Shown piece by piece: positions 16,625 through 41,567 of a stretch of 64,000 nucleotides of DNA. Made by a program: the position numbers and the translations under genes. How positions within the stretch are numbered: position 1 is the stretch's first letter; every line of letters starts with the position of its first letter. The notes under the pieces were generated by a model. It saw only the letters and a list, made by a program, of their open reading frames with translations. It did no database searches and was not told where the DNA came from. The DNA is from Betaproteobacteria bacterium (GTDB lineage Bacteria; Pseudomonadota; Gammaproteobacteria; Burkholderiales; Casimicrobiaceae), in NCBI GenBank assembly GCA_029884335.1, contig JAOUIA010000008.1:1-64000 (forward strand), given 5' to 3'.

Positions 16625-16638
16625 ATGACGTACATCAA
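16625..16638. promoter_or_regulatory. FNR-like box upstream of the pad operon
   Basis: ATGACGTACATCAA matches TTGAY-N4-RTCAA at all but the first base; the other strand reads TTGATGTACGTCAT. It lies in the 225-bp divergent gap between the GNAT gene (start 16591) and the pad unit, immediately beside the operator at 16643-16668. Confidence 0.45.
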
Positions 16639-16642
16639 ATCA

Positions 16643-16668
16643 CAAATACGCATTCGGATGCCAGATTA
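16643..16668 (-). promoter_or_regulatory. Putative operator, pad copy of a shared imperfect palindrome
   Basis: Read on the minus strand, TAATCTGGCATCCGAATGCG plus TATTTG matches the had/kor element at 35521 in 19 of 26 positions without gaps, and the perfect palindrome at 25247 in 15 of 26. It is AT-rich DNA in an otherwise GC-rich region and lies between the FNR-like box and the pad genes. Confidence 0.5.
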
Positions 16669-16816
16669 GCCCGATCCGGCCGATCCGGCAACTGGCGGCC
16701 GCGAGACGACACGCGCCGCCGGTCCGCCGCCGGCACGCGCAGCGCGAACGGTGGACGAGCCGTCGCGGGCGGCGCCCGAGCGCTGCCGCGCACCGGCAGA
16801 CGGAGGTTTCCTGGCG

Positions 16817-17026
16817 ATGAAGGCGAGTCTGGTCCCCGGCGCATCCGGCAGCGGCACGATCCGGGTCGGCGCGGCGCGCACCGTCGGGTTCATGGGCCGG
16901 CGAGCGCGGCCGGACGCGACGCCGATGCGCGTGCGCGACATGGACACGGCCGCGCGCGAGTTCCCGCCCGGCCACCCCGCCGCGAAGGACGGCAAGGCCG
17001 GCCTGCAGAAGGAGGACGAGGAGTGA
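16817..17026 (+). CDS. Small ORF coupled to padB, resembling the start of a hotdog thioesterase
   Basis: 69 residues from ATG at 16817, with GGAGG 10 bp upstream, and ending with TGA inside the GTG start of padB (GTGA). The segment LVPGASGSGTIRVGAARTVG resembles the first strand of hotdog-fold acyl-CoA thioesterases. The expected long helix and later strands are missing and are replaced by a hydrophilic tail (FPPGHPAAKDGKAGLQKEDE). It may be a decayed thioesterase or a short peptide kept to couple translation. I am fairly sure it is translated, and unsure of any function. Confidence 0.45.
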   Translation: MKASLVPGASGSGTIRVGAARTVGFMGRRARPDATPMRVRDMDTAAREFPPGHPAAKDGKAGLQKEDEE

Positions 17027-19770
17027 ACGCCCCCAACGAGCTCGCGGCGGTTGCAGGCAGCGCGCGCCGCGTCCCCACCTACTGCTACCAGTGCGTGGCC
17101 GGCCCCGACCTGCTGACGGTGAAGGTCGTCGACGGGATCGCCACCGAGGTCGAGCCGAACTTCTGCGCCGCCGGCATCCACCCCGGCCACGGCAAGGTCT
17201 GCGTCAAGGCCTACGGTCTGGTGCAGAAGACCTACCACCCGAACCGCGTGTCGTCGCCGATGAAGCGGACGAACCCGCGCAAGGGCCGCCACGAAGATCC
17301 GGGCTTCGTGCCCATCTCGTGGGACGAGGCGCTGTCGATCGTCGCGGACAAGCTCAACGCGATCCGCGCGCAGGGGCTGCTCGACGAGTCGGGCTACCCG
17401 CGCGTGGCAGCGTCGTTCGGCGGCGCGGGCACGCCGCAGGCTTACATGGGCACGTTCCCCGCGTTTCTCGCCGCGTTCGGCCCGATGGACATGGGCTTCG
17501 GCTCGGGACAGGGCGTGAAGTGCTACCACTCCGAGCACCTGTACGGCGAGTACTGGCACCGCGCGTTCATCGTCGCGCCAGACACGCCGCGCACCGAGTA
17601 CATCATCTCCTGCGGCATGAACATCGAGGCCTCGGGCGGCGTGGCCGGCGTCGCGAGGCACGCCGACGCGCGCATCAGGGGACTGAAGCGCGTGCAGGTC
17701 GAGCCGCACCTGTCGGTGACGGGCGCCTGCTCCGCCGAGTGGATCCCGATCAGGCCGAAGACCGACGCCGCCTTCCTCTTCGCGCTGATGCACGTGATGC
17801 TCGCGGCCCCCCGCGAGCGCCTCGACATCGCGTTCCTCGCCGGCCACACCGCTTCGCCCTACCTCGTCGGGCCGCACGGGTACTTCCTGCGCGATCCGGC
17901 GTCGCGCAAGCCGCTGCTGCACGACACGCGCTCGGGCGCCGCGGCGCCGTTCGACGCTCCCGGCGCGACGCCTGCGCTCGAAGGCCGCTACGAGGCCGAC
18001 GCCATCGAGATCGGCCCGGACGACGAGGTGCTCGCGCAAGGGCGGCTCCAGGGCACGACCGCGTTCACGCTGTACGCCGAGCACATGGCGCAGTACACGC
18101 CCGAGTGGGCGCAGGGCGTGTGCGAGGTCCCGGCGGCCACGATCCGCCGCATCGCCAACGAGTACCTCGACCACGCGCGCGTGGGCGAGACGATCGTCGT
18201 CGACGGCGTCACGCTGCCGTTCCGGCCGGTCGCGGTCACGCTGGGCAAGACGGTGAACAACGGCTGGGGCGGCTACGAGTGCGTGTGGGCGCGCACGATG
18301 CTCGCCGCGCTCGTCGGCGCGCTCGAGGTGCCGGGAGGGACGATCGGCACCACCGTGCGGCTCAACCGCACGTACAACGACCGCCACAAGAGCGTGAAGG
18401 CGGGCCTCGACGGGTTCATGGACTACCCGCTCAACCCCACCGACAAGGCGCGCTGGAAGCCGAAGCCGAACATCCGCAACGCCTACCGGACGATGGTGCC
18501 GCTCGCCGCCGACGGCCCGTGGAGCCAGGCGCTCGGGCCGACGCACTTCTCGTGGATGTTCCTCGACGAGACGCCGAAGGGGCTGCCGCGCGTGACGCTG
18601 CCGGACCTCTGGATCGTCTACCGCACCAATCCCGCGATCTCCTTCTGGGACACGCCGGGCCTGCAGGAGAAGATGGCGCGCTTCCCGTTCGTCGTGGCGT
18701 TCGCGTTCACGCGCGACGAGACGAACCACTACGCCGACATCCTGCTGCCCGAGGCCGGCGACCTCGAGAGCCTGCAGCTCATACGCATCGGCGGCACCAA
18801 GTACGTCGAGCAGTTCTGGGACCACGCCGGATTCGCGCTGCGCCAGCCGGTCGTCGCCCCCGAGGGCGACGTGCGCGACTTCACGGACATCGCCACCGAG
18901 CTCGCGCGGCGCTGCGGGCTGACGGACAAGTACGTCGACGCGATCAACCGCGGCATCGCCTGCGTCCCGCTCAAGGTCGCCGGGCACGACTTCTCGCTGC
19001 CCGCGAACCAGTCGCCGAGCTGCGAAGCGGTGTGGGACGCGGTGTGCAAGGCCGCGAGCGCCGAGGTGAGCGAGGGGCGCGAGGTCCACGGGCTCGACTG
19101 GTGGCGCGAGCACGGCACGATGACGCACCCGTACTCGCAGGTCGAGTGGTTCCTCTACCCCACGCTCGAGCGCATGAACCTGCGCTTCGAGCTGCCCTAC
19201 CAGGAGCGGCTGCAGCGCGTCGGCGCCGAGCTTGGCCGCCGCCTGCACGAGCACGACATGCGCTGGTGGGACACTCAGCTCCTCGAGTACCGCGCGCTGC
19301 CCGAGTGGCACGACTTCCCCGGCCTGTGGGACGAGGCGCTGCGCGACGCCGGCGCCGAGCCCTCCGACTACCCGCTGTGGCTGCTCACCGCCCGCAGCAT
19401 GCAGTACGCGTGGGGCGGCAACATGGCGATGCAGCTCATGAAGGAGGTCGCCGACAACGTCACCGGCCACCGCGGCGTGATCGTCAACGCGTCCACCGCG
19501 CGCCGGCTCGGCATCGAGGACGGCGACGAGATCGAGCTCTCCGTGCCGCATCGCACGACGCGCGGCCGCGCGGTCGTGCGCGAGGGCATCCGCCCCGACA
19601 CGCTGCTCGCCATCGGCCAGTTCGAGCACTGGGTGACGCCGTTCGCGAAGGACATCGGCAACGCGAGCCTCAACTCGCTGGCCGCGATGTCGCTCAAGCT
19701 CACCGACTCGACCGGCTCGGGCTGCGACGTCGTGCGCGTGCGGCTCGCCCGCGCGGGAGCCAAGTCGTGA
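17023..19770 (+). CDS. padB: Phenylacetyl-CoA:acceptor oxidoreductase, molybdopterin subunit (PadB-like)
   Basis: 915 residues from GTG at 17023, a DMSO-reductase-family molybdopterin enzyme. The N-terminal cluster segment begins TYCYQCVAGPDLLTVKVVDG, with Cys21, Cys24, Cys48 and Cys60 as candidate [4Fe-4S] ligands, a spacing unlike the common C-x2-C-x3-C. Cys167 in GVKCYHSEH is placed to be the molybdenum ligand. The C-terminal MGD-binding domain (LWLLTARSMQYAWGGNMAMQ) is complete. No twin-arginine signal is seen. With the FeS and NrfD-like genes that follow, it matches PadBCD of Thauera/Aromatoleum, which oxidises phenylacetyl-CoA toward phenylglyoxylate. Another substrate within this family is possible. 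Confidence 0.75.
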   Translation: MNAPNELAAVAGSARRVPTYCYQCVAGPDLLTVKVVDGIATEVEPNFCAAGIHPGHGKVCVKAYGLVQKTYHPNRVSSPMKRTNPRKGRHEDPGFVPISWDEALSIVADKLNAIRAQGLLDESGYPRVAASFGGAGTPQAYMGTFPAFLAAFGPMDMGFGSGQGVKCYHSEHLYGEYWHRAFIVAPDTPRTEYIISCGMNIEASGGVAGVARHADARIRGLKRVQVEPHLSVTGACSAEWIPIRPKTDAAFLFALMHVMLAAPRERLDIAFLAGHTASPYLVGPHGYFLRDPASRKPLLHDTRSGAAAPFDAPGATPALEGRYEADAIEIGPDDEVLAQGRLQGTTAFTLYAEHMAQYTPEWAQGVCEVPAATIRRIANEYLDHARVGETIVVDGVTLPFRPVAVTLGKTVNNGWGGYECVWARTMLAALVGALEVPGGTIGTTVRLNRTYNDRHKSVKAGLDGFMDYPLNPTDKARWKPKPNIRNAYRTMVPLAADGPWSQALGPTHFSWMFLDETPKGLPRVTLPDLWIVYRTNPAISFWDTPGLQEKMARFPFVVAFAFTRDETNHYADILLPEAGDLESLQLIRIGGTKYVEQFWDHAGFALRQPVVAPEGDVRDFTDIATELARRCGLTDKYVDAINRGIACVPLKVAGHDFSLPANQSPSCEAVWDAVCKAASAEVSEGREVHGLDWWREHGTMTHPYSQVEWFLYPTLERMNLRFELPYQERLQRVGAELGRRLHEHDMRWWDTQLLEYRALPEWHDFPGLWDEALRDAGAEPSDYPLWLLTARSMQYAWGGNMAMQLMKEVADNVTGHRGVIVNASTARRLGIEDGDEIELSVPHRTTRGRAVVREGIRPDTLLAIGQFEHWVTPFAKDIGNASLNSLAAMSLKLTDSTGSGCDVVRVRLARAGAKS

Positions 19771-20432
19771 CGCGCTGGGCGATGGTCGCGGACCTGCGCC
19801 GCTGCGTGGGCTGCCAGACGTGCACGGCCGCCTGCCGCCACGCCAACGCCACGCCGCCCGGAGTGCAGTGGCGGCGCGTGCTCGACGTGGAGGTGGGCGA
19901 GTTTCCCGACGTGAAGCGCGTGTTCCTGCCGGTCGGCTGCCAGCACTGCGACGAGCCGCCGTGCCTCGACGTCTGCCCGACGACCGCGACGCGCAAGCGC
20001 GACGACGGGATCGTCACCGTCGACTACGACCTGTGCCTCGGCTGCGGCTACTGCGCGGTCGCCTGCCCCTACCAGGCGCGCCACCGCACCCCGCGCGCGG
20101 TGTTCGCCTACGGCGGGGCGCCGGCGAAGCACGAGGCGAAGCGCCACGACCCGGCGCGCATCGCGGTGGCGACCAAGTGCACGTTCTGCGTCGAGCGCAT
20201 CGACTCCGGCACCGCGCAGGGGCTGACGCCCGGCGTCGACCCGGAGGCCACGCCGGCGTGCGTCAACTCGTGCCTCTCGGGCGCGCTCGCGTTCGGCGAC
20301 CTCGACGATCCGGGCAGCAACGTGTCGCAGCTGCTGCGCGAGAATCGCCACTTCCGCATGCACGCCGAGCTCGGCACCGGCCCGGGCTTCTACTACCTGT
20401 GGGACAAGGCACTGCCGGAGGCCGCACAATGA
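19767..20432 (+). CDS. padC: Phenylacetyl-CoA:acceptor oxidoreductase iron-sulfur subunit (PadC-like)
   Basis: 221 residues from GTG at 19767, overlapping padB by 4 bp. Four cysteine groups for four [4Fe-4S] clusters are visible: CVGCQTCTAAC, CQHCDEPPCLDVC, CLGCGYCAVAC, and CTFC combined with CVNSC. This is the DmsB/PhsB-type electron-transfer subunit that would carry electrons from the molybdenum subunit to the membrane anchor. It lies between padB and padD with overlapping codons on both sides. Confidence 0.8.
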   Translation: MTRWAMVADLRRCVGCQTCTAACRHANATPPGVQWRRVLDVEVGEFPDVKRVFLPVGCQHCDEPPCLDVCPTTATRKRDDGIVTVDYDLCLGCGYCAVACPYQARHRTPRAVFAYGGAPAKHEAKRHDPARIAVATKCTFCVERIDSGTAQGLTPGVDPEATPACVNSCLSGALAFGDLDDPGSNVSQLLRENRHFRMHAELGTGPGFYYLWDKALPEAAQ

Positions 20433-21283: not shown

Positions 21284-21407
21284 GGCGCGGGACGTCCGGG
21301 CGATGGACGCGCGCATCGCAGGCGCGGGGACGGCGCCGACCTTCCGCGCCTCCGCCGGGCCCGTGCCGCGCGGGTGCTCGGCCTGCGCCCCGCAATGAAC
21401 TGAAGCC

Positions 21408-21878
21408 ATGCCGAAACGCATCCTCGACGTGACGATCAACGGGACGCGCCGCGAGGACGCGGTCGCCGACTCGACGCTGCTGCTCGACTACCTGCGCGAA
21501 CAGCTCGGCCTCACCGGCACGAAGCGCGGCTGCGACGGCGGCGAGTGCGGCGCCTGCACGGTGCTGATCGACGGCGAGCCGGCGCTCGCCTGCATCACGC
21601 TCGCCGCGCGCTGCGAAGGCAGGCGCGTCGAGACCATCGAGTCGCTCGCGCGGAGCGGGCGCATGTCGGCGCTGCAGGCGGCGTTCCACGAGAAGCTCGG
21701 CACGCAGTGCGGCTTCTGCACCCCCGGCATGATCATGGCTTCCGAAGCGCTGCTCCGGCGCGATCCGCACCCGGACGAGGCGGCGATCCGCGCGGCGCTG
21801 GGCGGCAACATCTGCCGCTGCACCGGCTACGTCAAGATCATCGAGTCGGTGCAGGCGGCCGCGGAGGCGCGCGAGTGA
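21408..21878 (+). CDS. hcrC: 4-Hydroxybenzoyl-CoA reductase gamma subunit, [2Fe-2S]
   Basis: 156 residues, the small iron-sulfur subunit of xanthine-oxidase-family enzymes. The plant-type cluster uses [16 protein letters not shown] (Cys42, Cys47, Cys50) and Cys62. The second cluster uses [10 protein letters not shown] (Cys101, Cys104) and NICRCTGY (Cys136, Cys138). It starts the hcrCAB set, in which 4-hydroxybenzoyl-CoA is reductively dehydroxylated to benzoyl-CoA. Its stop overlaps the GTG of hcrA. Confidence 0.9.
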
Positions 21879-25212: not shown

Positions 25213-25222
25213 TCGGCGTCAA
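25209..25222. promoter_or_regulatory. FNR-like box upstream of the tandem GNAT gene
   Basis: TTGATCGGCGTCAA fits TTGAY-N4-RTCAA exactly and differs only in the spacer from the had/kor box TTGATCCTCGTCAA. It overlaps the hcrB stop codon and precedes the palindrome at 25247. Confidence 0.55.
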
Positions 25223-25246
25223 GGGCGACGCGGCCGCTTTCCACTT

Positions 25247-25272
25247 TAATTCGGTATCGCGATACCGAATTA
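25247..25272. promoter_or_regulatory. 26-bp perfect palindromic operator
   Basis: The half-site TAATTCGGTATCG is followed at once by its exact reverse complement. It has no loop and is followed by GGGCGG rather than a U-tract, so it looks like a protein-binding site, not a terminator. It lies 34 bp after hcrB and 70 bp before the tandem GNAT start. Similar, less perfect elements lie at 16643 and 35521. Confidence 0.65.
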
Positions 25273-25342
25273 GGGCGGAGGACGCCGCGGCGTGCCGCAG
25301 ACGGCGGCGCGGCGCATACTTCGCCGCACCACGGAGCACGCC

Positions 25343-26356
25343 ATGCCTGCCGCCACCGCAACGCCGACCAGCGTCGCCACGATCCGCCCGCTCGCGCCGC
25401 GCGACCTCGACGCCGTCGTCGCGATCGATGCCGCGCTCGAGCGCCGCCCGCGCCGCGCCTACATCGAGCGCCGCCTCGCCGCCGCGATCCGCGAGCCCGG
25501 CCTGCACGCGCAGTTCGCTGCCGTCGACGGCGACGCACTGACCGGCTACGTCCTCGCCCGCGTGCTGGAGGGCGAGTTCGGCCGCAGCTCGCCGTCGCTG
25601 CGCCTCGAGATCGTCGGCGTGCGGCCGGATCGCCAGCACCACGGCGTGGGCGCCGCGCTGCTCGACGCGCTCGCCGCGTGGGGCAGGCGCCACGGCGCCA
25701 GCGAGCTGCGCACCGCCGCCGCGTGGAACGATCACGCGCTGCTGGCGTGGTTCGACGCCATGGGCTTCCGGCTCGCGCCGGGGCTCGTCGTCGACCGCGC
25801 GGTCGCCGGCGAGCTGGCGGATGCGCGCCGCGAGGACCCGGTCGACGCGCCCGGCGACGCGGGGCACCGCGAGATCGACTACGGCCTGCAGGACGACAAC
25901 GACGCCGAGAAGCTCGCGCGCGACATGGCCGACGTGCGCACGATGACGCGCGCGGACCTCGCCGACATCGTGCGCGTCGACCGCCGCGTCACCGGCCGCG
26001 ACCGCAGCGCCTACATCGAGCACAAGCTCGCCGAGGCGCTCGACGACGCTGCGATCCGCGTGTCGCTGACCGCCCGCCTCGACGGCGAGGTCGTCGGCTT
26101 CCTGATGGCCCGCGCCGACCTCGGCGACTACGGCCGCACCGAACCCGTCGCGGTGCTCGACACGATCGGCGTCGACCCGGCGTGGGCGCACCGCGGCGTC
26201 GGTCGCGCGATGCTCTCGCAGCTCGCGTTCAACCTCGAGGCGCTGCACATCGAGCGCATCGAGACGATCGTCGCGCCGCAGGACTTCGCGCTGCTCGGCT
26301 TCCTGTACGCGCAGGGCTTCGCGCCGTCGCAGCGGCTCGCGTTCGTGCGCGGCTGA
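25343..26356 (+). CDS. Tandem GNAT-domain acetyltransferase in the aromatic-degradation region
   Basis: 337 residues from ATG at 25343. Two GNAT domains are joined: the first (about 10-155) has IRPLAPRDLDAVVAIDAALE and VGVRPDRQHHGVGAALLDAL, the second (about 195-335) has MTRADLADIVRVDRRVTGRD and IGVDPAWAHRGVGRAMLSQL. Both keep a usable acetyl-CoA loop. The domains are related to each other and to the GNAT at 16112. Its promoter region carries the same FNR-like box and operator type as had/kor, so it probably belongs to the anaerobic aromatic regulon. Acetylation of aryl-CoA ligases is a reasonable but untested idea. Confidence 0.85.
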   Translation: MPAATATPTSVATIRPLAPRDLDAVVAIDAALERRPRRAYIERRLAAAIREPGLHAQFAAVDGDALTGYVLARVLEGEFGRSSPSLRLEIVGVRPDRQHHGVGAALLDALAAWGRRHGASELRTAAAWNDHALLAWFDAMGFRLAPGLVVDRAVAGELADARREDPVDAPGDAGHREIDYGLQDDNDAEKLARDMADVRTMTRADLADIVRVDRRVTGRDRSAYIEHKLAEALDDAAIRVSLTARLDGEVVGFLMARADLGDYGRTEPVAVLDTIGVDPAWAHRGVGRAMLSQLAFNLEALHIERIETIVAPQDFALLGFLYAQGFAPSQRLAFVRG

Positions 26357-26393: not shown

Positions 26394-26930
26394 TCACATC
26401 GCCCGCGAGGGCAGGCGGACCGTCTCCCCCGCCAGCATGAACCGCCCGCGCCCGCGGTGGTGGATCGTGCGCGGATCGCGTCGCGCGGCGTCCACCCAGG
26501 CCTCGACGACCTCGAGCACGAAGAACCCGTACCTCGCCACGCGGCTCGTGTCGACCACGCGGCACTCGAGGTTCGCGTAACACTCGGCGACTAGCGGCGC
26601 CGCGACGCGCGCCGCGGGCGATGCGGTGAGCCCGAACTTCGCGAACTTGTCGACGCTGCGCCCGGAGGCGTTGCCGCAGCGCACCACCTTGCGGGCGACG
26701 TCCACGGCGGGGATCGCGATCACGCACTCGCGCGTGGCCTTCAGCGTGTCGAAAGAGTAGTTGCGGTTGCTGACGACGCAACCCACGAGCGGCGGCTCGA
26801 ACTCGAGCATCGTGTGCCAGGACATCGCCATCGCGTTCGCCCGGCCCTTGCGAGCGGTGACGAGCAGCACCACCGGCCCCGGCTCCAGCAGGCCGTAGAC
26901 GCGCGACAGCGGGTAGCGCCGGAAGGTCAC
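26394..26930 (-). CDS. Flavin reductase-like FMN-binding split-barrel protein
   Basis: 178 residues from GTG at 26930. The split-barrel motifs RKGRANAMAMSWHTMLEFEP and VSNRNYSFDTLKATRECVIA mark the flavin reductase-like/DIM6 family, which binds FMN and passes electrons from NAD(P)H. It is the last cistron of the had-bcr unit, 23 bp after the ferredoxin. A short uncharacterised ORF in related bcr clusters holds a similar place. Its partner is unknown. Confidence 0.75.
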   Translation of the reverse strand: MTFRRYPLSRVYGLLEPGPVVLLVTARKGRANAMAMSWHTMLEFEPPLVGCVVSNRNYSFDTLKATRECVIAIPAVDVARKVVRCGNASGRSVDKFAKFGLTASPAARVAAPLVAECYANLECRVVDTSRVARYGFFVLEVVEAWVDAARRDPRTIHHRGRGRFMLAGETVRLPSRAM

Positions 26931-26953
26931 CGCCTGCCTCCGCGATCGCGCCG

Positions 26954-27199
26954 CTACCCGTGCAGCGACTCGTACTTCGCCTGCAGCTCCTCGGGCGTCT
27001 CGCGGAAGTCCGGGTGATCGACGATGCAGTCGGCGGGACAGACGAGGCGGCATTGCGGCTCGTCCTCGGCGCCGACGCACTCGGTGCACTTCGCCGGGTC
27101 GATCACGTAGGCGGGATCGGCCTTGGCAATGGCGTCGTTGGGGCACACCGGAAGGCAGGCGTCGCAGGCGGTGCAGTTGTCGTCGATCATCAGGGCCAT
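26954..27199 (-). CDS. fdx: 2[4Fe-4S] ferredoxin, electron donor of benzoyl-CoA reductase
   Basis: 81 residues. Two cluster motifs are visible: CTACDACLPVCP, and CTECVGAEDEPQCRLVCP with the enlarged loop between cysteines seen in Thauera/Allochromatium-type ferredoxins, plus a C-terminal helix (ETPEELQAKYESLHG). In Thauera this ferredoxin carries electrons from 2-oxoglutarate:ferredoxin oxidoreductase to benzoyl-CoA reductase. It lies 23 bp after bcrD, and korAB is in the same region, matching that circuit. Confidence 0.9.
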   Translation of the reverse strand: MALMIDDNCTACDACLPVCPNDAIAKADPAYVIDPAKCTECVGAEDEPQCRLVCPADCIVDHPDFRETPEELQAKYESLHG

Positions 27200-27222
27200 C
27201 GTCGGCTCCTCGTCGGGTCGGG

Positions 27223-28062
27223 TCAGGCGGCGGCGCGCTCGAGGGCGGACAGCCTGTCGTGGCGGAACGCGCCCCAGAGCGCCGCGCCGATGGCGCCGGC
27301 GTAGATCGAGTCCTCGTGCGCCACGGCCTCGACGCCGACCTTCTCGTTGGCCATCTCCTCGCGGATCGCGGCCAGCAGCCCGGTGTCGAGCGCGAGTCCG
27401 CCGGTCATCAGCGCCTTGCCCTCCTTGATGCCGGTGACCTTGAGCAGCTTGACGATGCGCGAGGCCATCGACAGGTGGATGCCCTTCAGGATGTCGGGCG
27501 TGGCGATGCCGCGCGAGACCATGTTGATGACGTCGGTCTCCGCCAGCACCGCGCAGATCGACGAGACCTTCTCCGGGTTCTGCGAGGTCTGCGAGAGCGG
27601 TCCGATCTCCTCGACGGCGACGCCGAGGTAGCGCGCGATGTTCTCGAGGAACTGCCCCGAGCCCGACGCGCACTGGCTGGTCATCTTGTAGGAGAGCACC
27701 TTGCCGCGCTCGTCGACGTAGATCGCGCGGCCGTTCAGCGCCCCGATGTCGACGACCGCGCGCGCCCCCGGCTCGAGGAACACGCCGCCGCGGGCGTGCG
27801 TGGTCATCGAGTAGAAGTGGCCGGTGGCGAACTTGACGTTCTCGCCCTCGCCGGTGGTGGCGACGTAGGCGACGTCGTCGGCGCCGAGCCCCGCGTCGGC
27901 GAGCACGCCGTCGCGACCCTCCTGCGCCAGCGTCATCGGGTCGCGCCGGCGGATGCGCTCGCATCGTTTCGCGAGCCAGCGCGGCTTGCCGTTCGCGTCG
28001 AACGCGAACAGCGCGGTCTTGACGGCGCCGGAGCCGATGTCGATGCCGATCGTGTGCTTCAT
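27223..28062 (-). CDS. bcrD: Benzoyl-CoA reductase subunit D (ATPase/activator type)
   Basis: 279 residues with the ASKHA ATPase plan: phosphate loop GIDIGSGAVKTALF at the N-terminus and VVDIGALNGRAIYVD near 103. Cys131 (SQCASGSG) and Cys170 (SSICAVLAE) match the two cluster ligands each activator subunit gives to the bridging [4Fe-4S] cluster. With BcrA it forms the ATP-hydrolysing half of class I benzoyl-CoA reductase. It is separated from bcrA by 340 bp of repeats, much more than the other gaps in the unit. Confidence 0.92.
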   Translation of the reverse strand: MKHTIGIDIGSGAVKTALFAFDANGKPRWLAKRCERIRRRDPMTLAQEGRDGVLADAGLGADDVAYVATTGEGENVKFATGHFYSMTTHARGGVFLEPGARAVVDIGALNGRAIYVDERGKVLSYKMTSQCASGSGQFLENIARYLGVAVEEIGPLSQTSQNPEKVSSICAVLAETDVINMVSRGIATPDILKGIHLSMASRIVKLLKVTGIKEGKALMTGGLALDTGLLAAIREEMANEKVGVEAVAHEDSIYAGAIGAALWGAFRHDRLSALERAAA

Positions 28063-28074
28063 GCCCGAAACTCC

Positions 28075-28150
28075 GTCGTTCCCGCGCAGGCGGGAACCCA
28101 GTGTCGTTGGTCGAAAGTCGCTGGATCCCCGCGTTCGCGGGGATGACGAC
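28075..28150. repeat. 76-bp two-hairpin REP-like element, copy 1
   Basis: Two stems, TTCCCGCGCAGGCGGGAA and ATCCCCGCGTTCGCGGGGAT, separated by a short variable linker, the well-known GTCATTCCCGCG-type intergenic repeat of proteobacteria. It is between bcrA and bcrD. Copies of the same length occur at 31231 and 63295. Confidence 0.85.
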
Positions 28151-28158
28151 GACCGATC

Positions 28159-28404
28159 ATGCCCGTGCACATCCATGAGCGCAGATGGCTTGCGCGACGT
28201 CGCGTTGTCGGCGCGCGGGCACGAGCCCTGGTCGCATCCCCGCAGCGCTCCGCGTCTGCGGGGCCCCTGCTTCCCGGGCTCATGCCCGTGCACATCCATG
28301 AGCGCAGATGGCTTGCGCGACGTCGCGTTGTCGGCGCGCGGGCACGAGCCCTGGTCGCATCCCCGCAGCGCTCCGCGTCTGCGGGGCCCCTGCTTCCCGG
28401 GCTC
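28159..28404. repeat. Tandem duplication, two 123-bp units between bcrA and bcrD
   Basis: Units 28159-28281 and 28282-28404 read identically, and the start of a third reads on into the bcrA 3' end (CATGCCCGTGC). Each unit contains a hairpin, CCCCGCAG...CTGCGGGG. As 123 is divisible by three the units also give repeating 41-codon frames, but no start signal or recognisable peptide supports a gene. Confidence 0.9.
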
Positions 28405-29743
28405 ATGCCCGTGCCTCCGCCGTCCTGCCCTCCTCCATCACCGCCCGCCAGGCGAACGTCGCGCCGCCGAGCGCCCCGGTGTAGATGGAGTCGGGATCGA
28501 TGTTGAGCGTCAGCTCGCCGTAGTTCTCGCGGACGAGCTCGCGCAGCGCCTTGACCGCCGCCTCGTTCTTCGCCACGCCGCCGGTGAACGTGAACTCGTC
28601 GCGGATGCCGCCCGAGCGCGCCAGGATCGACATCGCGCGCAGGATGATCGCGCGGTGCAGGCCGGCCATGATGTCCTCGCGCTTGTCGCCGAGCGAGAGA
28701 CGGTCGCGCAGCTCCGCGCCGGCGAACACGGTGCACGTCGAGTTGATGCGGATGGTCTTCGTCGACTTCATCGCCATGGGGCCGAGCTCGTGCAGGCCCA
28801 TGTTCATCTCGTCGGCGATGTAGCCCAGGTAGCGGCCGCAGCCGGCGGCGCAGCGGTCGTTCATCTGGAAGCTCTCGACGATGCCGGCGCGGTCGACCTG
28901 GATCGCCTTCGTGTCCTGGCCCCCGATGTCGAGCACCGTCGCCGTGCCCGGATACATCATGTGCGCGCCGAGCCCGTGGCAGAGGATCTCCGAGCGGATG
29001 TGCTCCTTGGAGAACGGCAGCCTGGCGCGCCCGTAGCCGGTGCCGACGATGTAGGTCTCCTCCATGTCGAGGTCGAGGATGCCCTTGATCGGCGCCTCCA
29101 CCCGGGAGCGGCGACCCGCGGTCTCGGGCAGCGCCACGAACGCGCGCTCGAGGGCGGCGAGCAGGTGGCGGCGGATGGAATCCGCGTAGACCCGGTTCTC
29201 GACCTCGATGATCGAGCGGTCGAAGACGTTGAGCAGGAAGTCGTAGCGCACGCCCGCGTCCTTCGCCACGGCCTCGCCGACGGCGAGGTACTGGCTGCCG
29301 GCGATGTCGCGGAAGAAGTCCGACTTGCGCTTCGCCCCCGGGGCGAACAGCTCCGGCGCGCCCGCGGCGAGGCGGCGGAACACCTCGCCCAGCGCCTCGC
29401 CCACGCCCGCGGTCGCGTCGCCGAACTTCGCGGTGCCCAGATTGCGCCGGCAGGTGGCCTCGAGGTCGGCGAGCTGCTCGAGGTACTGCTCGAGACGGAA
29501 GTCGCGCTCGAGCTGGCTTAAGAAACGGTCCAGCGAGCCGTTCAGGGCGCCGGTGGTCGACAGCGCCTCGCGGAACAGGTGGAAGCGGCCGTTGACCAGC
29601 GCCTCCTGCTTGGCGATCGCGGCCGCCGTATCGTAGTTCGAGCGCGAGTTCGTGATGCCGCGCCCGAGGATGTTCTGCTGCTCGTCGATGACCACTGCCT
29701 TGGTCGTCGTGGAGCCGAGGTCGATGCCGATGAAACAGCGCAT
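28403..29743 (-). CDS. bcrA: Benzoyl-CoA reductase subunit A (ATPase type)
   Basis: 446 residues. ASKHA motifs: [15 protein letters not shown] at the N-terminus and [16 protein letters not shown] near 269-284. Cluster-ligand candidates are Cys298 ([12 protein letters not shown]) and Cys337 ([13 protein letters not shown]). An insert of about 150 residues between the first two ATPase motifs, as in Thauera BcrA, separates it from the shorter BcrD. It pairs with BcrD to couple two ATP to the transfer of each electron pair to the aromatic ring. It starts 125 bp after bcrB; the intervening sequence holds nothing recognised. Confidence 0.93.
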
Positions 29744-29868
29744 GCCGCTCTCCGATTCCCTAGTGTCTCTCGAACTTGCTCATGAAGCTGCCGGCGTGCA
29801 GGGGGCCGTCTGCTGGCACGCGCATTCTCGTTCGGCCGGTCCGTCGCGGAGCGCCGGGCCTGTCCCGG

Positions 29869-31218
29869 CTAGTGGGCGGCCGCGATCGGGATCGTGCGGG
29901 GCAGATCGTGCCCGACTCCCGACGTGCGCTTCTGCTTGATCATCTGGAAGTAGCTCTCCAGCCGGTTCTTCACGTTGGCCGCCGAGAAGTAGCGCGGATC
30001 GACGAGGTCTGTCTCGATGAAGGCCGCCGGCTTGCCGGTGCGCTTCTCGACCTCGCGCAGGATGAGGAGCTGGCCGGCGGAGAAGCTGTTGCAGCTCTTG
30101 ATCGAGTTGATCAGCAGGCCGTCGGCCTGGTACTCGTCGATGTAGCGGCAGATCATGTCGATGCGCGACGGCAGGTTCAGGTTCGTGTAGCAGCCGAGGC
30201 AGTACTCGGCGAGCGACTCGAGCGGCCGGTCGGCGTCGTGGCGGAAGCCGAAGTCGTACAGCCCGCCGACCTTGGCGTAGGTCGACGACACGACGACCGC
30301 CCCCTCCTCGTAGAACATCTTCCAGAAGTCCCGGAAGCTGGTCCAGTTGGGCGGCCCCTCGACGACGAGCCGGTACTTCTCCTCCCCCATCTCGCCTTCC
30401 GGCGTGACCGGGCCCTTGCCCTGCCGCACGCGCTCCTCGATCTCGCCGCGCAGCACGCTGTAGTACTGCGAAGCTTCGGGCGTGCCCCGGAACGCCGTGA
30501 AGATCGGGCCGATGTAGTAGACGGCGCCGAAGTAGCCGTCGATCGGCGAGGGCCGGTTCTTCGCCGACTGCAGCACGGCGACCAGGTCCTCCTCGGCCTT
30601 CTGCGACTCCCTCATGTACTGGCGCAGCCGGTCGATGTCGAACTTGACCCCCGAGATGCGCTCGAGCGTGGGGATCACGTTCTCCTTCAGCTGCTTCACC
30701 ACGTACTCGCGCATGTTCGGCGCGATCTTCCCCTCGCCCTGGTAGGGGACGTGCAGCATCACCGTCTCGCAGCCGTACTTGTGGCGGATCAGCTCGAACC
30801 ACTTCATGAACGTGAAGCAGCCGGTGTACGAGAGCAGCAGCACGTCCGGCCGCGGCAGCACCTCGCCCGTCGGCCCCACCTCGCCGCCCATCATCATGCC
30901 GAGGTCGGCCTTGACGTAGGTGCACACGTCCTCGGACTGGCCGTCGCGCTCGGCGTCCATGATCATCTTGCCGGACTTCTTGCGCATGCCGTTCTGCAGC
31001 GCGTTCGTCTCCGGCAGGCTGCGCGCGAAGTCGAAGCACATCAGCAGCTCGTTCAGGTTTCCCGGGACGAACGTCGCCGACACCTTGCGGCCCATCTGGT
31101 GAGCCGTGGCGAGCTCCGTGTAGTTCCGGTTGATGAGCTCCTTCTGCAGCCACATCGCGTCCTCCTTCTGGACGTTCTGCGGCTTCTTCACGGAGGCGGG
31201 CATCGCGGCGGTGGTCAT
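29869..31218 (-). CDS. bcrB: Benzoyl-CoA reductase subunit B
   Basis: 449 residues from ATG at 31218; a start further upstream would run through the REP element. It belongs to the 2-hydroxyglutaryl-CoA dehydratase D-component family. Candidate ligands for the active-site double-cubane-type clusters are cysteines in LSYTGCFTFMKWFE, LAEYCLGCYTNLNLPS and INSIKSCNSFSAGQ. With BcrC it binds benzoyl-CoA and carries out ring reduction to the 1,5-dienoyl-CoA. It sits between bcrC and bcrA as in Thauera. Confidence 0.93.
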   Translation of the reverse strand: MTTAAMPASVKKPQNVQKEDAMWLQKELINRNYTELATAHQMGRKVSATFVPGNLNELLMCFDFARSLPETNALQNGMRKKSGKMIMDAERDGQSEDVCTYVKADLGMMMGGEVGPTGEVLPRPDVLLLSYTGCFTFMKWFELIRHKYGCETVMLHVPYQGEGKIAPNMREYVVKQLKENVIPTLERISGVKFDIDRLRQYMRESQKAEEDLVAVLQSAKNRPSPIDGYFGAVYYIGPIFTAFRGTPEASQYYSVLRGEIEERVRQGKGPVTPEGEMGEEKYRLVVEGPPNWTSFRDFWKMFYEEGAVVVSSTYAKVGGLYDFGFRHDADRPLESLAEYCLGCYTNLNLPSRIDMICRYIDEYQADGLLINSIKSCNSFSAGQLLILREVEKRTGKPAAFIETDLVDPRYFSAANVKNRLESYFQMIKQKRTSGVGHDLPRTIPIAAAH

Positions 31219-31230
31219 TTCATTGCTCCA

Positions 31231-31306
31231 GTCATTCCCGCGCAGGCGGGAATCCAGTGTCCTGCAACAAGAGTCGCTGGGTCCCCGCCTCCGCGGGGAC
31301 GACGAC
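31231..31306. repeat. 76-bp two-hairpin REP-like element, copy 2
   Basis: ATTCCCGCGCAGGCGGGAAT and GTCCCCGCCTCCGCGGGGAC stems around a variable linker. It fills the gap between the bcrC stop (31312) and the bcrB start (31218), inside the catabolic operon. Confidence 0.85.
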
Positions 31307-31311
31307 ATCCC

Positions 31312-32493
31312 TCATGCCGCGCTCCAAAGCTTGATCGAATCGGCGAAGGTGCCCGCCTGCTCGCGGATCGGCGCCATCTGCCCGGTGTTCTCGGCGTACT
31401 TGAACGCCGTATAGGGAACCCCGTGCTTCGCCAGGACGTCCTGCAGCATCGGCCGCTCGAGCAGCGCCGGGTCGCAGAACGACGGCGCGGCGAACACGAC
31501 GCCCTCGGCGCCGCGCGTCTTCACCTGCTTCAGCAGGAACACGCCCTTCTCCTCGCGCGTCGCGTCGTACTTCGCCGCGGTCGACGCGGAGCGGTGCAGG
31601 AAGGCCTTCGACAGCTCCTCGAGCGGGTTGCCGTCGGCGGGCACGTCGTCGAGCAGCCAGCGCGTCACCAGCATGAAGTCGTCGTCGACGACGTAGCAGC
31701 CCGACATCTCGATCGACTTGATCAGCGCGAGCGGCGGCTGCTCGCAGAACGTCCCGTTGATCACCACGCGGGCGTTGTCGCGCTTCGGCCGTGGAAACTC
31801 GTCGACTGCGGCGAGGTACTCGCGCACCAGTTTCGTGTGCTCCTCGGGCGGCAGCACCATGCCGGCGCGCAGCAGCAGGTAGACCTCGGAGGTCGGCGCC
31901 TGCCAGGGCTTGCGCGCGCGGTACGCGTAGAGGTCGCGCACGGCTGCGCGGTTGTCGTTGTAGACGGCGATCGACGCGTTGAGCTCGGCGTCGCCGATCG
32001 GCTTGCCGCGCAGCTTCCCGAGGTCGTCGCGCAGGATCTCCAGCTCGTGGACGTAGTACCTGCCGCCGATCTCGTCCTGGTAGTTCTGCGGCACGTCGAA
32101 GTAGCGGACGTACTTGTCCTTGAACAGGATCTGCCACATGCCCGACAGGTTGCGGATCACGTCGCAGATCGACGGGAACAGCATGCCGTCGAGGCAGTCG
32201 AGGCGGCCGGTCAGCCCGAGCTCGATCGTCGAGCGCGGGATGCGGCAGATGTAGCTCTGGTAGTAAGCGTCCCCCTGGATCACCTCCAGCGAGTCGCCGC
32301 CGCCGAGGATGCCCACCGGCAGCATGCCAGCGGCGTGGACCAGCTCGCGCGGCACGTAGACCGGCATGTAGCCGATCGCCTTGCGGCCAGTCCCGGCGGC
32401 CTTCCAGGCCTTGACCGCCTTGAAGTCGAGGTCGTCGAACAGCGCCTCGCAGCGCTGCACGATGGCGACAGCGGGGGGAATCGTTGCGGTCAT
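31312..32493 (-). CDS. bcrC: Benzoyl-CoA reductase subunit C
   Basis: 393 residues from ATG at 32493, second member of the HgdB-like pair that forms the substrate-reducing half. Conserved stretches include KAIGYMPVYVPRELVHAAGM, YYQSYICRIPRSTIELG, GMLFPSICDVIRNLSGMW and INGTFCEQPPLALIKSIE, with cysteines suited to iron-sulfur coordination. Its ATG touches the stop of dch by one base, so the two are coupled. A REP element follows it. Confidence 0.93.
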   Translation of the reverse strand: MTATIPPAVAIVQRCEALFDDLDFKAVKAWKAAGTGRKAIGYMPVYVPRELVHAAGMLPVGILGGGDSLEVIQGDAYYQSYICRIPRSTIELGLTGRLDCLDGMLFPSICDVIRNLSGMWQILFKDKYVRYFDVPQNYQDEIGGRYYVHELEILRDDLGKLRGKPIGDAELNASIAVYNDNRAAVRDLYAYRARKPWQAPTSEVYLLLRAGMVLPPEEHTKLVREYLAAVDEFPRPKRDNARVVINGTFCEQPPLALIKSIEMSGCYVVDDDFMLVTRWLLDDVPADGNPLEELSKAFLHRSASTAAKYDATREEKGVFLLKQVKTRGAEGVVFAAPSFCDPALLERPMLQDVLAKHGVPYTAFKYAENTGQMAPIREQAGTFADSIKLWSAA

Positions 32494-33263
32494 CAGCGAT
32501 GCTCCCAGCGCGGCGCGCGCTTGGCGAGGAAGGCCGCGAGCCCCTCGTTCGCGTCGTGCGTCTTCATGAGGCCTTCGAGGTAGAGCCGCTCGACGTCGGC
32601 CAGCTGCGCCTTCGCGCGCTGCACGCGCGCGCCGCGCGCCGCCTTGAGCGCGTGGCGCAGGCTCGCCGCGCTGCGGGGGGCGAGGTGCTCGTCGAAATAC
32701 GCGAGCGCCGCCGCCGCCGGGTCCTCCGCGATCGCCTGCACCAGTCCGATCGCGCGCGCCTCCTCGGCGCCGATCGCGCGACCCGAGAACAGCAGATCCT
32801 CGGCGGCCGGCTGGCTCACGCGCCAGGGCAGCAGCACCGAGGCCGCCGGCGCGAACACGCCGAGCTTCATCTCGGGCTGGCCGAACTTCGCATCCGGCGC
32901 GGCGTGGATGCGCCCCCCGGCGAGCGCCAGCTCGAGGCCGCCGCCGAGGCACTGGCCGCGCGCGGCGACGAGGATCGGCGCCGGGTACTCCAGCATCGCG
33001 CCCAGCAGCGCGTGCAGCGAGGCGAGCATCTGCGCGCACTGCGCCGGCAGGTGTTCCTCGACGCTCGCCCCGAAGCTGAAGTGCGGCCCCTCGTGGTCGA
33101 TCAGCGCGCCGCGCAGCTCCGGCGCGTGCCGGTGCGCCTCGAGCGCGTCGAACAGCGCCGCGATCATCGCGGCGTCGATGAGGTTGGCCTTCGGCCGCGC
33201 CAGCGTGAGCCGCAGCAGCGCGCCGTCGCGCTCGCGGGCGACGCGCAGCGGAGCGTCAGCCAT
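32493..33263 (-). CDS. dch: Cyclohexa-1,5-diene-1-carbonyl-CoA hydratase
   Basis: 256 residues of the crotonase family, with oxyanion-hole segments HFSFGASVEEHLP and AARGQCLGGGLELALAGGRI. In the Thauera route Dch adds water to the dienoyl-CoA made by benzoyl-CoA reductase, giving 6-hydroxycyclohex-1-ene-1-carbonyl-CoA. It overlaps oah by 8 bp upstream and bcrC by one base downstream. Identity rests on the neighbours as much as on the sequence, since crotonases are diverse. Confidence 0.9.
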   Translation of the reverse strand: MADAPLRVARERDGALLRLTLARPKANLIDAAMIAALFDALEAHRHAPELRGALIDHEGPHFSFGASVEEHLPAQCAQMLASLHALLGAMLEYPAPILVAARGQCLGGGLELALAGGRIHAAPDAKFGQPEMKLGVFAPAASVLLPWRVSQPAAEDLLFSGRAIGAEEARAIGLVQAIAEDPAAAALAYFDEHLAPRSAASLRHALKAARGARVQRAKAQLADVERLYLEGLMKTHDANEGLAAFLAKRAPRWEHR

Positions 33264-34371
33264 GGCGCTTCGCCTTCGGCTGGATGCTGTCGTGCAGCGG
33301 CCCGACCCAGCTCTCGCCGGCGGCGAGCTTCTGGCGCAGCAGCACGAAGTCGACCTCGCGGTCGTCCTTCGTGCCCTCGTTGAACGCCGTGAACCCGGCG
33401 CGCGCCTCGGTCATCATGTTGAGCGCGAGCCAGGCGCGCGAGTTCTCCTTGTTGCGGTTCCAGGCGTCGAGCTTGGGCTTGCGCAGCTCCTCGAGCGTCT
33501 TGGTCGTGCAGTCGGGGAAGGTGAGCAGCATCTTCGCGCACAGCTCCTCGACCTTCGCGTCGAGGAGCGAGAGGTCGACGCTGCCGCGGGCGAGCAGCGC
33601 CTTGCCCTCCTTCGCCGCGTCGCCGGTCTTCGGCTCGCCGAACACGAACCGGCCGTACTCGTCGACCATGCGCTGCGTTTCGACCAGCGGGTTGGCGACG
33701 AACTTCCCGTCGACCTTGAGTGCGGGCACGAGGTCGGTCAGCACCCCCATCCAGTACGCCTTGTGCGCCGAGAACGGCTCGCACAGCACGCACGCAGCCA
33801 TCGCGCGCTCGGCCCCCGCGATCACCGGCAGGAAGTCGGTGGCCCCGCCGATCGGCGCCGAGCCGTGCTTCGGCCCCGCCTGCCCGAAGCGGGCGAGGTC
33901 CTGCGCCACGGAGAAGTCGCAGGCCATGCCGATCTCCTGCCCGCCGCCGATGCGCATGCCGTTGACGCGGCAGATCACCGGCTTGTCGCAGGCGAGGATG
34001 GCCGACACCATGTCGTTGAACAGGCGCATGTACTGGCGGTACTCCTGCGGCTGCCCCGCGTAGTACTCGGCGTACTCCTTCGTGTTGCCGCCGGTGCAGA
34101 ACGCGCGGTCGCCGGCGCCGGTGAACACCACGCAGTTGACGTCGCGCGCGTTGGAGGCGGCGCGAAAGGCGAGGATCACCCCCTTCACCATGTCCGTCGT
34201 GTACGAGTTGAACTGCGACGGGTTGTCGAGCGTGATCCAGGCGTTGTAGAGGCCGGGCACGACGGCGCCGCCTGGCCGCGTGGCGGGCTTGAGCTCGTAG
34301 CGCACGCCCGGCTTGCCGAAGTCGGCGACGAGGTCGTGCGAGTGGAAGTCGGAGGCTGCGGGGGCGTTCAT
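33256..34371 (-). CDS. oah: 6-Oxocyclohex-1-ene-1-carbonyl-CoA hydrolase (ring opening)
   Basis: 371 residues, a long crotonase-family enzyme with the Oah features FCTGGNTKEYAEYYAGQPQE and VNGMRIGGGQEIGMACDFSV and an extended C-terminal region ending HDSIQPKAKRHG. It hydrates and then cleaves the C-C bond of the six-membered ring, giving 3-hydroxypimelyl-CoA. It lies between had and dch. The start MNAPAASDFHSHD is 28 bp from the had stop. Confidence 0.93.
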   Translation of the reverse strand: MNAPAASDFHSHDLVADFGKPGVRYELKPATRPGGAVVPGLYNAWITLDNPSQFNSYTTDMVKGVILAFRAASNARDVNCVVFTGAGDRAFCTGGNTKEYAEYYAGQPQEYRQYMRLFNDMVSAILACDKPVICRVNGMRIGGGQEIGMACDFSVAQDLARFGQAGPKHGSAPIGGATDFLPVIAGAERAMAACVLCEPFSAHKAYWMGVLTDLVPALKVDGKFVANPLVETQRMVDEYGRFVFGEPKTGDAAKEGKALLARGSVDLSLLDAKVEELCAKMLLTFPDCTTKTLEELRKPKLDAWNRNKENSRAWLALNMMTEARAGFTAFNEGTKDDREVDFVLLRQKLAAGESWVGPLHDSIQPKAKRHG

Positions 34372-34399
34372 CCGGCGGGGCCTTTCGTTGGGAGTCGCT

Positions 34400-35467
34400 T
34401 CACGCCGGCACCAGGACGGCGCGCCTGCGGATTTCCTTGTGATGCACGGCGTGGAAGACCGCGTTGATGTCGGCGAGCGGGTGGCGCTCGACGAACGGGG
34501 CGATCGCCACCCTGCCGTCGAGCACGAGTTCGAGCGCGGCGGGGTACGACTCGGGCGGGCAGCCCCAGTTGCCGATCGCGCGCGCGTCGAACGCCATCAG
34601 GTTCGACAGGCGAATCTCGACGCGGTCCATCGTGAAGCCGACCACGCACAGCGTCGCGCCGTGCACGAGCAGCGACCAGGCGGTCAACTGGCCGGCGGCC
34701 GTGCCCGAGCACTCGAAGACGATCCACTCGGTGGCCCTGAGCCCCTGCGCCTTGGCGAAGGCGGCGATCGCGCCCTTGACCGCCTTCGCGTCGTGCTCGC
34801 GCGCGTTCAGCGTCAGCGCGGCGCCGTGCTCGGCGACGGCGGCGAGCTTCGCGGCGTCCACGTCGACGGCCACGACCTTCGCGCCGAAGGCGCGCGCGAT
34901 CTGCACGCAGTAGCCGCCGACCCCGCCCACGCCGACGACGATGGCGAGGCTGCCGGGCGCGACGCCGGCGCGCCGCACGGCCTGGTAGGGCGTGGTGAGC
35001 GCATCGGCGACGATCGAGACGTCGGCGAGCGAGAGTCCTGCCTTCGCGAGCCGCGCCTCGTCGACCTCGCACAGCCCGCGCCCGGGCACGACGATGTGGC
35101 TGGCGAAGCCGCCCTGGATGTCGTTGCCCGGCATCTTCTGCGCCCGGCAGATCGGCGCGAGGCCGCGCTTGCAGAGGTCGCACTCGCCGCAGGGCAGCAC
35201 GGCCGGCACGATGACCGCCTTGCCCACCCAGCCCTGTGCACCCGCGCCCGCCGCGACGACGCGCCCGGAGATCTCGTGGCCGAGCGCGAGCGGCAGCGGA
35301 TGGTTGGTCCGCACGCCGTCGTAGTAGTAGCCGAGGTCGGTGTGGCACACGCCGCAGCCGGCGATCGCGACGACCACCTCGCCGGCCGCCGGCTCGGCGA
35401 CGAACGCCTCGCGCACGAGCGGCGCTCCCTGCGCGGTCATCAGCCAGCGGTGCGCTTGCATGCCCAT
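34400..35467 (-). CDS. had: 6-Hydroxycyclohex-1-ene-1-carbonyl-CoA dehydrogenase
   Basis: 355 residues from ATG at 35467, chosen because GGAGGAGGGG-type ribosome sites lie just upstream; a second ATG is two codons in. It is a medium-chain zinc alcohol dehydrogenase: catalytic-zinc segment [14 protein letters not shown], structural-zinc loop [15 protein letters not shown] with four cysteines and NAD site [14 protein letters not shown]. It oxidises the Dch product to the 6-oxo compound. As the first gene of the minus-strand unit it is preceded by the operator at 35521 and the FNR-like box at 35584. Confidence 0.92.
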
Positions 35468-35520
35468 GCTCCGCCCCTCCTCCGGGCGTGCCGCGGACTC
35501 CCGCGGCGCAGCAATTGTTG

Positions 35521-35547
35521 TAATTTGGTACCGCAATGCGTATATTA
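35521..35547 (+). promoter_or_regulatory. Putative operator in the had/korA divergent promoter
   Basis: TAATTTGGTACCGCAATGCG plus TATATTA, an imperfect palindrome. It matches the perfect palindrome at 25247 in 17 of 26 positions and the pad element at 16643 in 19 of 26. It lies 54 bp before had and overlaps a possible -10 (TAATAT read on minus), so a repressor bound here would block had-bcr transcription. Confidence 0.55.
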
Positions 35548-35583
35548 CGACCAAAAGGTTGCGCGTGTCGACTTCGCATTGCA

Positions 35584-35597
35584 TTGATCCTCGTCAA
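35584..35597. promoter_or_regulatory. FNR-like box between had and korA
   Basis: TTGATCCTCGTCAA matches TTGAY-N4-RTCAA. Its centre is 124 bp from the had start and 130 bp from the korA start, so it could serve both divergent units. FNR-type activators (AcpR) drive bzd genes in Azoarcus; that is the closest known precedent. Confidence 0.55.
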
Positions 35598-41553: not shown

Positions 41554-41567
41554 TGTGACGGAGTCCG

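Follow-up and report, generated by a model that had tools for sequence, protein, structure and literature searches.

A palindromic operator shared by anaerobic aromatic degradation promoters of a Burkholderiales bacterium, probably bound by a BadM-like Rrf2 repressor beside FNR-type boxes

Introduction

Which regulator joins the promoters of an anaerobic aromatic degradation cluster when one short element recurs in front of them? The question is raised by a stretch of 64,000 nucleotides (here called the window; positions 1 to 64,000 of contig JAOUIA010000008.1, assembly GCA_029884335.1) from a Betaproteobacteria bacterium of the order Burkholderiales, whose genome is a 3.66 Mb draft of 120 contigs with a G+C content of 72%. 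An earlier note on this DNA described three promoter regions, those of pad, of a tandem-GNAT gene and of had/kor, where an FNR-like box stands beside an AT-rich element of about 26 bp. All three lie in the window's cluster for anaerobic aromatic degradation. The note proposed an uncharacterised regulator, perhaps responding to an aryl-CoA, acting together with an FNR-type activator. Our analysis of sites and gene neighbourhoods suggests that the shared element is most likely the operator of a BadM-like repressor of the Rrf2 family (gene at 15705-16115), which would stand beside FNR-type activator sites and repress until an inducer binds. Coordinates of all features are collected in Table 1.

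A conserved palindrome upstream of the GNAT-Rrf2 gene pair

The coordinates, letters and match counts of the three boxes and elements were correct on recheck. The pad and had elements are identical at 19 of 26 positions and have ATACGCATT in common, the had element agrees with the tandem-GNAT palindrome at 17 of 26, and the order box, operator, gene is found at all three promoters. In a palindrome scan, 25247-25272 is the longest perfect palindrome of the window.

The matrix used here was not built from these three sites. Instead, related loci were obtained by a contig scan with the window Rrf2 protein, and a palindromic expectation-maximization (EM) search was run upstream of the GNAT-Rrf2 pair, that is, upstream of the BadL-like gene badL. 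The best 80 of 246 relatives were kept; the presence of Rrf2 in these 80 loci is thus by construction. A first scan of the 80 loci with the palindrome alone gave maxima no different from those of shuffled versions (16 in 13 of the 80 loci and 17 in 4; among 240 controls 13, 1, and one at 19), and a recurring position in that scan led to the de novo search. The upstream set held 78 non-redundant regions (the window and 77 others) out of 81, after L021 and L053 had been dropped as too short and L031 as a near-duplicate of L030. The search returned one 24-bp motif, ATTCTgGcATtcgAATGCcAGAAT, in 77 of the 78 badL-upstream regions. Its log-likelihood ratio is 1022, versus 55.0-57.0 in three shuffled sets, and in the window it coincides with the pad element placed at 16643 by the earlier note.

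A leave-one-out matrix was made from 76 sites of the other loci, with the window excluded. Over the 64 kb it ranks 35514 (17.8), 16644 (17.7), 25248 (16.4) and 35522 (16.2) at the top, followed by 41567 (8.9) and then a place at 0.4. In 40 order-1 Markov shuffles of the window the mean maximum is 1.4 and the top score 10.4. On these scores we reject a chance origin of the elements; all three stand far above the window background, and the shared cis-module is real. The places 35514 and 35522 are 8 bp apart, so the had element is an overlapping doublet, which the first description had not seen. Similar 8-bp-shifted doublets are found at bcr/kor of L148, L150, L151 and L190.

Applied to the 80 loci, which total 799 kb, the matrix gives 84 places with a score of at least 10, against 1 for a permuted matrix. 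Seventy-nine of them lie upstream of badL, and 4 are kor/bcr intergenic places, in the four of the 80 loci whose stretch includes that region. The remaining one precedes a short-chain dehydrogenase/reductase (SDR) gene and sits between two perfect FNR boxes. The hits are therefore not random, and orthologous genes elsewhere have the elements in their upstream regions too; these are the two points on which the earlier note had said that its proposal could fail.

The whole own genome of 3.66 Mb was scanned with a palindromic 24-mer pattern at up to 3 mismatches, which is a pattern search and not a matrix scan. It gave 9 places (1 with the reversed pattern), and the three best are the three elements described before. 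A further place, C93:8308 (L103:4809), scores 17.6 and precedes branched-chain-type ATP-binding cassette (ABC) transporter genes (PF13458, PF02653), which perhaps serve aromatic acid uptake. The weaker places score 8.4 (C86:22529), 7.1 (C70:21448) and at most 3.3 (C104, C8 and C93:23423). The C8 match, at 3.3, adjoins the other Rrf2 gene of the genome, a second and stronger Rrf2 match, and was rejected as a regulon member; we take it to resemble an IscR box.

Could the elements be mere AT-rich sigma-70 promoter cores beside FNR sites? On the plus strand the had element does read TTGTAA, 17 bases and TATATT, and many L037-type sites read TTGCAT, 17 bases and TAGAAT in the pad direction. However, conservation is palindromic across 24 bp and includes invariant positions in each arm, one copy is a perfect 26-bp palindrome, and the motif occurs in either orientation and at varying distance from the gene. 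We regard such an origin as very improbable.

Linkage to a cysteine-free Rrf2 protein

Against the earlier view that the window has no evident regulator gene, an Rrf2 gene (15705-16115) adjoins the pad element and is conserved there. The pad element would serve badL-badM too. In 80 of 80 fetched loci the Rrf2 gene has a GNAT gene immediately upstream, and a GNAT gene also precedes it in six more distant relatives with 47-54% identity, found in a phylum sample of 398 genomes. The window Rrf2 protein has zero cysteines. Among 81 aligned sequences 75 have none and 6 have some, and no alignment column holds more than three. An iron-sulfur sensor is thus unlikely. The NsrR, IscR and RirA models score far below their cut-offs on the window protein, and an iron-sulfur Rrf2 regulator of this type was rejected since conserved cysteine ligands are missing. 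The shared palindrome is very probably the binding site of the Rrf2 repressor from the same gene cluster.

The padB regions (n=17, 16 fetched and the window) separate the site from the pad gene. The operator is present in 6 of 6 regions with the GNAT-Rrf2 pair and in 1 of 11 without it (Fisher 0.0006); discounting the weak 7.0 site of L218 the first count is 5/6 (p 0.005). In L216, L228 and L229 the operator is beside badL, kilobases away from padB. Because padB without the pair mostly lacks an operator, the site tracks badL-badM and not padB.

In an order sample of 250 genomes the Rrf2 gene occurs in 6 and the tandem GNAT in 7, with an overlap of 6 (hypergeometric 2e-11, with no kinship correction); the tandem GNAT is thus present in 6/6 genomes with Rrf2 and in 1/244 without it. 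The mean number of pattern matches is 4.5 in the 6 Rrf2 genomes (control 0) versus 1.09 in the 244 others (control 0.55), with a Mann-Whitney p of 4e-5 and both strands of palindromes counted. The had gene was considered as a marker for an Rrf2-less control. Only 3 of 250 genomes score above the had cut-off, and all 3 carry the Rrf2 gene, so had is unusable for this.

Conservation at other promoters and FNR-type boxes

The kor/bcr intergenic region holds an operator match in 11 of 11 cases (window, L028, L029, L040, L072, L148, L150, L151, L189, L190 and L168), the weakest scoring 8.7 and 7.4. An FNR box (at most one mismatch, within about 100 bp) accompanies 9 of the 11. L059 (G010:C7), L031 (G179:C2) and L084 (G722:C37) were not double-counted.

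The tandem GNAT is a duplicated and fused relative of BadL; identity to the BadL-like protein is 35% in the N half (E 1e-16) and 27% in the C half (E 3e-11). Its gene lies behind an operator in the window, G179, G102, G083, G010, L084 and L168; the L215 sequence is cut off. In G179 and G102 one gene stands between operator and tandem GNAT, which in G179 is a hemerythrin-domain gene. Such hemerythrin-domain genes (window 14109-14693 and 15159-15695; L104:3126-3620) recur beside badLM or between operator and tandem GNAT.

The FNR-like boxes of the window are far in excess of chance. Perfect TTGAYN4RTCAA boxes number 3 (25209, 35584 and 41616) versus 0.0 in shuffles, and boxes with at most one mismatch 8 versus 0.6. 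Set beside the TTGAT-N4-ATCAA-like box of the FNR regulon, two of the three promoters have a perfect TTGAYN4RTCAA box and one has a box with a single mismatch. The distance between the centres of box and operator is 24 bp at pad, 44 bp at the tandem GNAT and 65/57 bp at the had/kor doublet. Upstream of badL, 42 boxes with at most one mismatch are found in the 78 regions versus 1.2 in shuffles, 33 at 22-24 bp and 5 at 18 bp from the operator. A box is in range of 39 of the 77 operators at one mismatch and of 58 at two, so the FNR box is common and not universal. Several other genomes, but not all, have such boxes at distances typical of each promoter (about 23, 44 and 55-65 bp). G179 and G102 have an operator and a perfect box at all three promoters, with spacings of 23, 44 and 63-64 (or 55-56) bp. 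In G103 both are present at badL (spacing 17 bp) and at kor/bcr (spacing 18 bp, with an operator score of 8.7), while the tandem GNAT comes after bcrD and has no operator. G083 has operators at all three promoters with a one-mismatch box at badL only, and G010 has operators and no FNR box near them. Also in G083, overlapping operator matches of 17.4 and 17.0 (L149:4961) precede an M20-family amidohydrolase gene, whose product might remove the acyl group from an inducer or release benzoate from a conjugate.

These boxes support the earlier proposal of an FNR-type site beside the operator for a second regulator. The own genome has nine Crp-type helix-turn-helix (HTH) matches, seven above cut-off. 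One FNR protein, L110 on contig C118, has an N-terminal CxxCxxxxxC cluster (CTSCSMRELC) and a helix LETVSR, both read from the translation; the latter is presumably the FNR-type DNA specificity code. Another of these matches, a Crp/Fnr-family gene, lies in the window at 13085-13921, 2 kb from badM. Its product is without the FNR N-terminal cysteine cluster, and its recognition helix EIVSR we take to be FNR-like. As a conserved neighbour this gene has no match in the 80 loci.

In the more distant L168, one cluster combines badM, badL and the tandem GNAT with bcr, oah, had and kor. It has matches of 14.7 before the tandem GNAT and 7.4 between had and kor, and a one-mismatch FNR box at each. In L166 (G384; 9541-9592) a match of 15.7 lies between badL and a boxC gene (TIGR03222, 898.7 bits) that belongs to the aerobic benzoyl-CoA route, and no FNR box is present within 100 bp. 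In L167 a RidA-like gene is preceded by a match of 16.7, and hcr/badL has one of 6.7. On an Agrobacterium plasmid the neighbours of the GNAT-Rrf2 pair include genes for molybdenum hydroxylase, an ABC transporter and benzoate-CoA ligase.

Several observations weigh against control of these promoters by the Rrf2 repressor together with FNR. The operator match of the Agrobacterium plasmid is weak (4.0), and the distant relatives L163-L165 have only weak matches near badL (1.6-2.3). In L008, L108 (G103), L109 (G241) and L217 the tandem GNAT is not directly preceded by an operator. On the activator side, 19 of the 77 badL-upstream operators lack an FNR box even at two mismatches, G083 and G010 have none at bcr/kor and the tandem GNAT, and no common -10 hexamer is found at the class II position (-41.5; 32 bp downstream of the box centre), the TANNNT profile reaching no more than 4 of 50 at one offset (37). 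Two further points bear directly on the regulator: L217 has a 10.7 site in its padB region with no GNAT-Rrf2 pair in its stretch, and covariation of the Rrf2 HTH with the operator is inseparable from kinship.

The last two points would also suit an operator that belongs to another, unlinked regulator, with the Rrf2 gene merely a target, as would the 44 of 244 Rrf2-less genomes whose pattern matches exceed their own control by at least 2. This explanation is at odds with the higher pattern counts in Rrf2 genomes, with the missing site at padB in 10 of 11 regions away from the pair, and with the position of the site, which heads the GNAT-Rrf2 genes whatever their neighbours (pad, hcr, tandem GNAT or boxC). 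We consider it improbable, and the linked Rrf2 protein is the preferred candidate.

Proposed mechanism

Our starting observations are the sites, their conservation, the Rrf2 linkage, the FNR box spacing and, in the genome, an FNR gene that encodes the cysteine cluster; protein-DNA binding, repression, the inducer and what the tandem GNAT does are inferred. FNR would activate three promoters under anoxia, those of pad/badLM, tandem GNAT and had-bcr/kor. A repressor of the BadM type would sit between FNR box and gene and block all three until an inducer binds. The inducer could be an acetylated aminobenzoate from the BadL-like GNAT, which would be co-transcribed with the repressor, and possibly from the tandem GNAT too; we rate the chance of a BadL-made inducer of this kind as about even. 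The same operators precede badL-badM and the tandem GNAT, so that the circuit would regulate itself.

The same repressor and operator could instead respond to an aryl-CoA (benzoyl-CoA or phenylacetyl-CoA) or another intermediate, with the GNAT modifying something else. BzdR and MbdR of comparable pathways are described as responding to aryl-CoAs (PMC6678401, PMC4424350), and acetamidobenzoate is reported to act clearly on BadM of R. palustris at 10 mM but to have no effect at 5 mM (PMC6191541). On the other hand, the GNAT gene precedes Rrf2 in every fetched locus and in the six distant relatives, and R. palustris is reported to require BadL only with BadM present (PMC6191541). An aryl-CoA or other such inducer thus seems rather unlikely, and the linked acetyltransferase makes acetamidobenzoate a better-supported guess than the aryl-CoA of the earlier note.

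More tentatively, the system may be a self-amplifying switch, in which a cysteine-free BadM-type repressor would use one operator over both inducer-making GNATs and over the ring-reducing, pad, kor and uptake genes, with the FNR box as an oxygen gate. Beside the aerobic boxC the operator is kept and the FNR box is not seen.

Other features of the window

All seven genes of the benzoyl-CoA reductase cluster score above NCBIfam cut-offs (Table 1), and the gamma subunit of 4-hydroxybenzoyl-CoA reductase (hcr) is recognised by TIGR03193. For the product of 17023-19770 none of the NCBIfam pad models reaches its cut-off; the name pad is that of the earlier note.

A fourth, weaker box-operator pair, 44 bp apart, is present before hemN (41567 and 41616). 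The shuffle maximum of 10.4 exceeds 8.9, so 41567 is not beyond chance on score alone. Among four relatives with hemN an operator match is present in 0/4 and an upstream FNR box (at most one mismatch, within ~150 bp) in 2/4.

Between the FNR box and kor, at 35639-35701, lies a long GC-rich inverted repeat, GGGGTCAGACCCGCGTTTC ... GAAACGCGGGCCTGACCCC, which resembles a repetitive element.

Table 1. Predicted operators, FNR-type boxes and genes of the window
Feature	Position	Strand	Remarks
FNR-like box ATGACGTACATCAA	16625-16638		between badL (minus) and padB (plus); one mismatch to TTGAYN4RTCAA
Predicted operator, pad/badLM promoter	16644-16667 (element of the earlier note 16643-16668)	minus	found de novo; leave-one-out score 17.7
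FNR box TTGATCGGCGTCAA	25209-25222		perfect TTGAYN4RTCAA; overlaps stop codon of upstream hcr flavoprotein gene
Predicted palindromic operator, tandem-GNAT promoter	25247-25272		perfect 26-bp palindrome; leave-one-out score 16.4 (matrix place 25248)
FNR box TTGATCCTCGTCAA	35584-35597		perfect TTGAYN4RTCAA; had/kor intergenic region
Predicted overlapping operator doublet, had-bcr/kor intergenic region	35514-35545 (element of the earlier note 35521-35546)	minus	35514, 17.8; 35522, 16.2
Weak candidate operator before hemN	41567-41590	minus	score 8.9
FNR box before hemN	41616-41629		perfect TTGAYN4RTCAA
BadM-like Rrf2 regulator gene	15705-16115	minus	PF02082 88.8 bits (cut-off 30); TIGR00738 96.9 bits (cut-off 73.3)
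BadL-like GNAT acetyltransferase gene	16112-16591	minus	PF00583 43.1 bits (cut-off 20.7); overlaps badM; start codon uncertain
padB-like molybdopterin oxidoreductase gene	17023-19770	plus	PF00384, PF01568
Tandem-GNAT gene	25343-26356	plus	PF00583 in two stretches; both halves related to BadL-like protein
Benzoyl-CoA reductase cluster (had, oah, dch, bcrC, bcrB, bcrA, bcrD)	26394-35467	minus	all seven above NCBIfam cut-offs
had	34400-35467	minus	TIGR03201 above cut-off
oah	33256-34371	minus	TIGR03200 above cut-off
dch	32493-33263	minus	TIGR03189 above cut-off
bcrC	within 31312-33039	minus	TIGR02263 above cut-off
bcrB	within 29869-31308	minus	TIGR02260 above cut-off
bcrA	28403-29743	minus	TIGR02259 above cut-off
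bcrD	within 27223-28299	minus	TIGR02261 above cut-off
kor, 2-oxoacid:acceptor oxidoreductase alpha subunit gene	35720-37462	plus	TIGR03710 542.7 bits (cut-off 482.75); divergent from had
hemN	40159-41553	minus	TIGR00538 586.4 bits

Comparison with known systems

The regulator of the Thauera-type had-oah-dch-bcr operon had been left open. For Thauera sp. MZ1T a comparison across Betaproteobacteria found no BzdR or BoxR site before this operon, and its part on the matter makes no mention of Rrf2 (PMC6449761). A survey, in the part concerned, places BadM solely in an alphaproteobacterial context (PMC10803450). In the open-licence literature we found no description of a BadM operator or regulon in Betaproteobacteria; the operator of R. 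palustris may be in print and resemble the present one. The present analysis gives, for the window and many Burkholderiales, a BadM-type gene, its likely operator and a regulon of several promoters, together with a matrix open to gel-shift testing. The pairing of FNR box and palindrome at three promoters makes the control of these genes directly testable. The system would also extend a rare idea, that of an acetyltransferase producing the inducer of a neighbouring repressor.

Three kinds of regulators serve for comparison. In the PN promoter of the Azoarcus bzd genes AcpR is placed at -41.5 and the BzdR operator OR1 over -10 and +1 (PMC6678401), and in the window, too, the FNR-type box lies farther upstream than the predicted repressor operator. 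BzdR operators are described as carrying TGCA palindromes (PMC6678401). BzdR is an XRE plus shikimate-kinase-like protein, whereas the window has an Rrf2 protein and a GGTA/TACC-type palindrome. None of the three window elements contains TGCA, and they are not of the BzdR type, as already noted before. NsrR, IscR and RirA have the Rrf2 fold and winged HTH in common with the window protein, in which their conserved cysteine is missing.

The closest likeness is to R. palustris, where BadM is described as repressing and AadR as activating badDEFGAB, homologues of BadL as acetylating aminobenzoates, and 10 mM acetamidobenzoate as loosening BadM from the promoter (PMC6191541). Here as there, an Rrf2 gene is paired with a GNAT gene, benzoyl-CoA reductase genes are a target, and an FNR/Crp-type activator would be combined with an Rrf2 repressor. 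The paired control foreseen in the earlier note is thus supported, while its uncharacterised regulator gives way to the described BadM/BadL system, to which the linked GNAT points (PMC6191541). Unlike R. palustris, the window belongs to the Burkholderiales, has bcr/had/oah genes of the Thauera type and would include pad, kor and the tandem GNAT as further targets. It has a defined palindromic operator, also before badL-badM itself, and the two systems are likened by family and gene pairing, not by operator sequence. Clustering of GNAT and Rrf2 genes outside R. palustris had already been noted in Geobacter and Magnetospirillum (PMC6191541). With BadL, BadM and this clustering already published, the system of the window is a variant of a known one.

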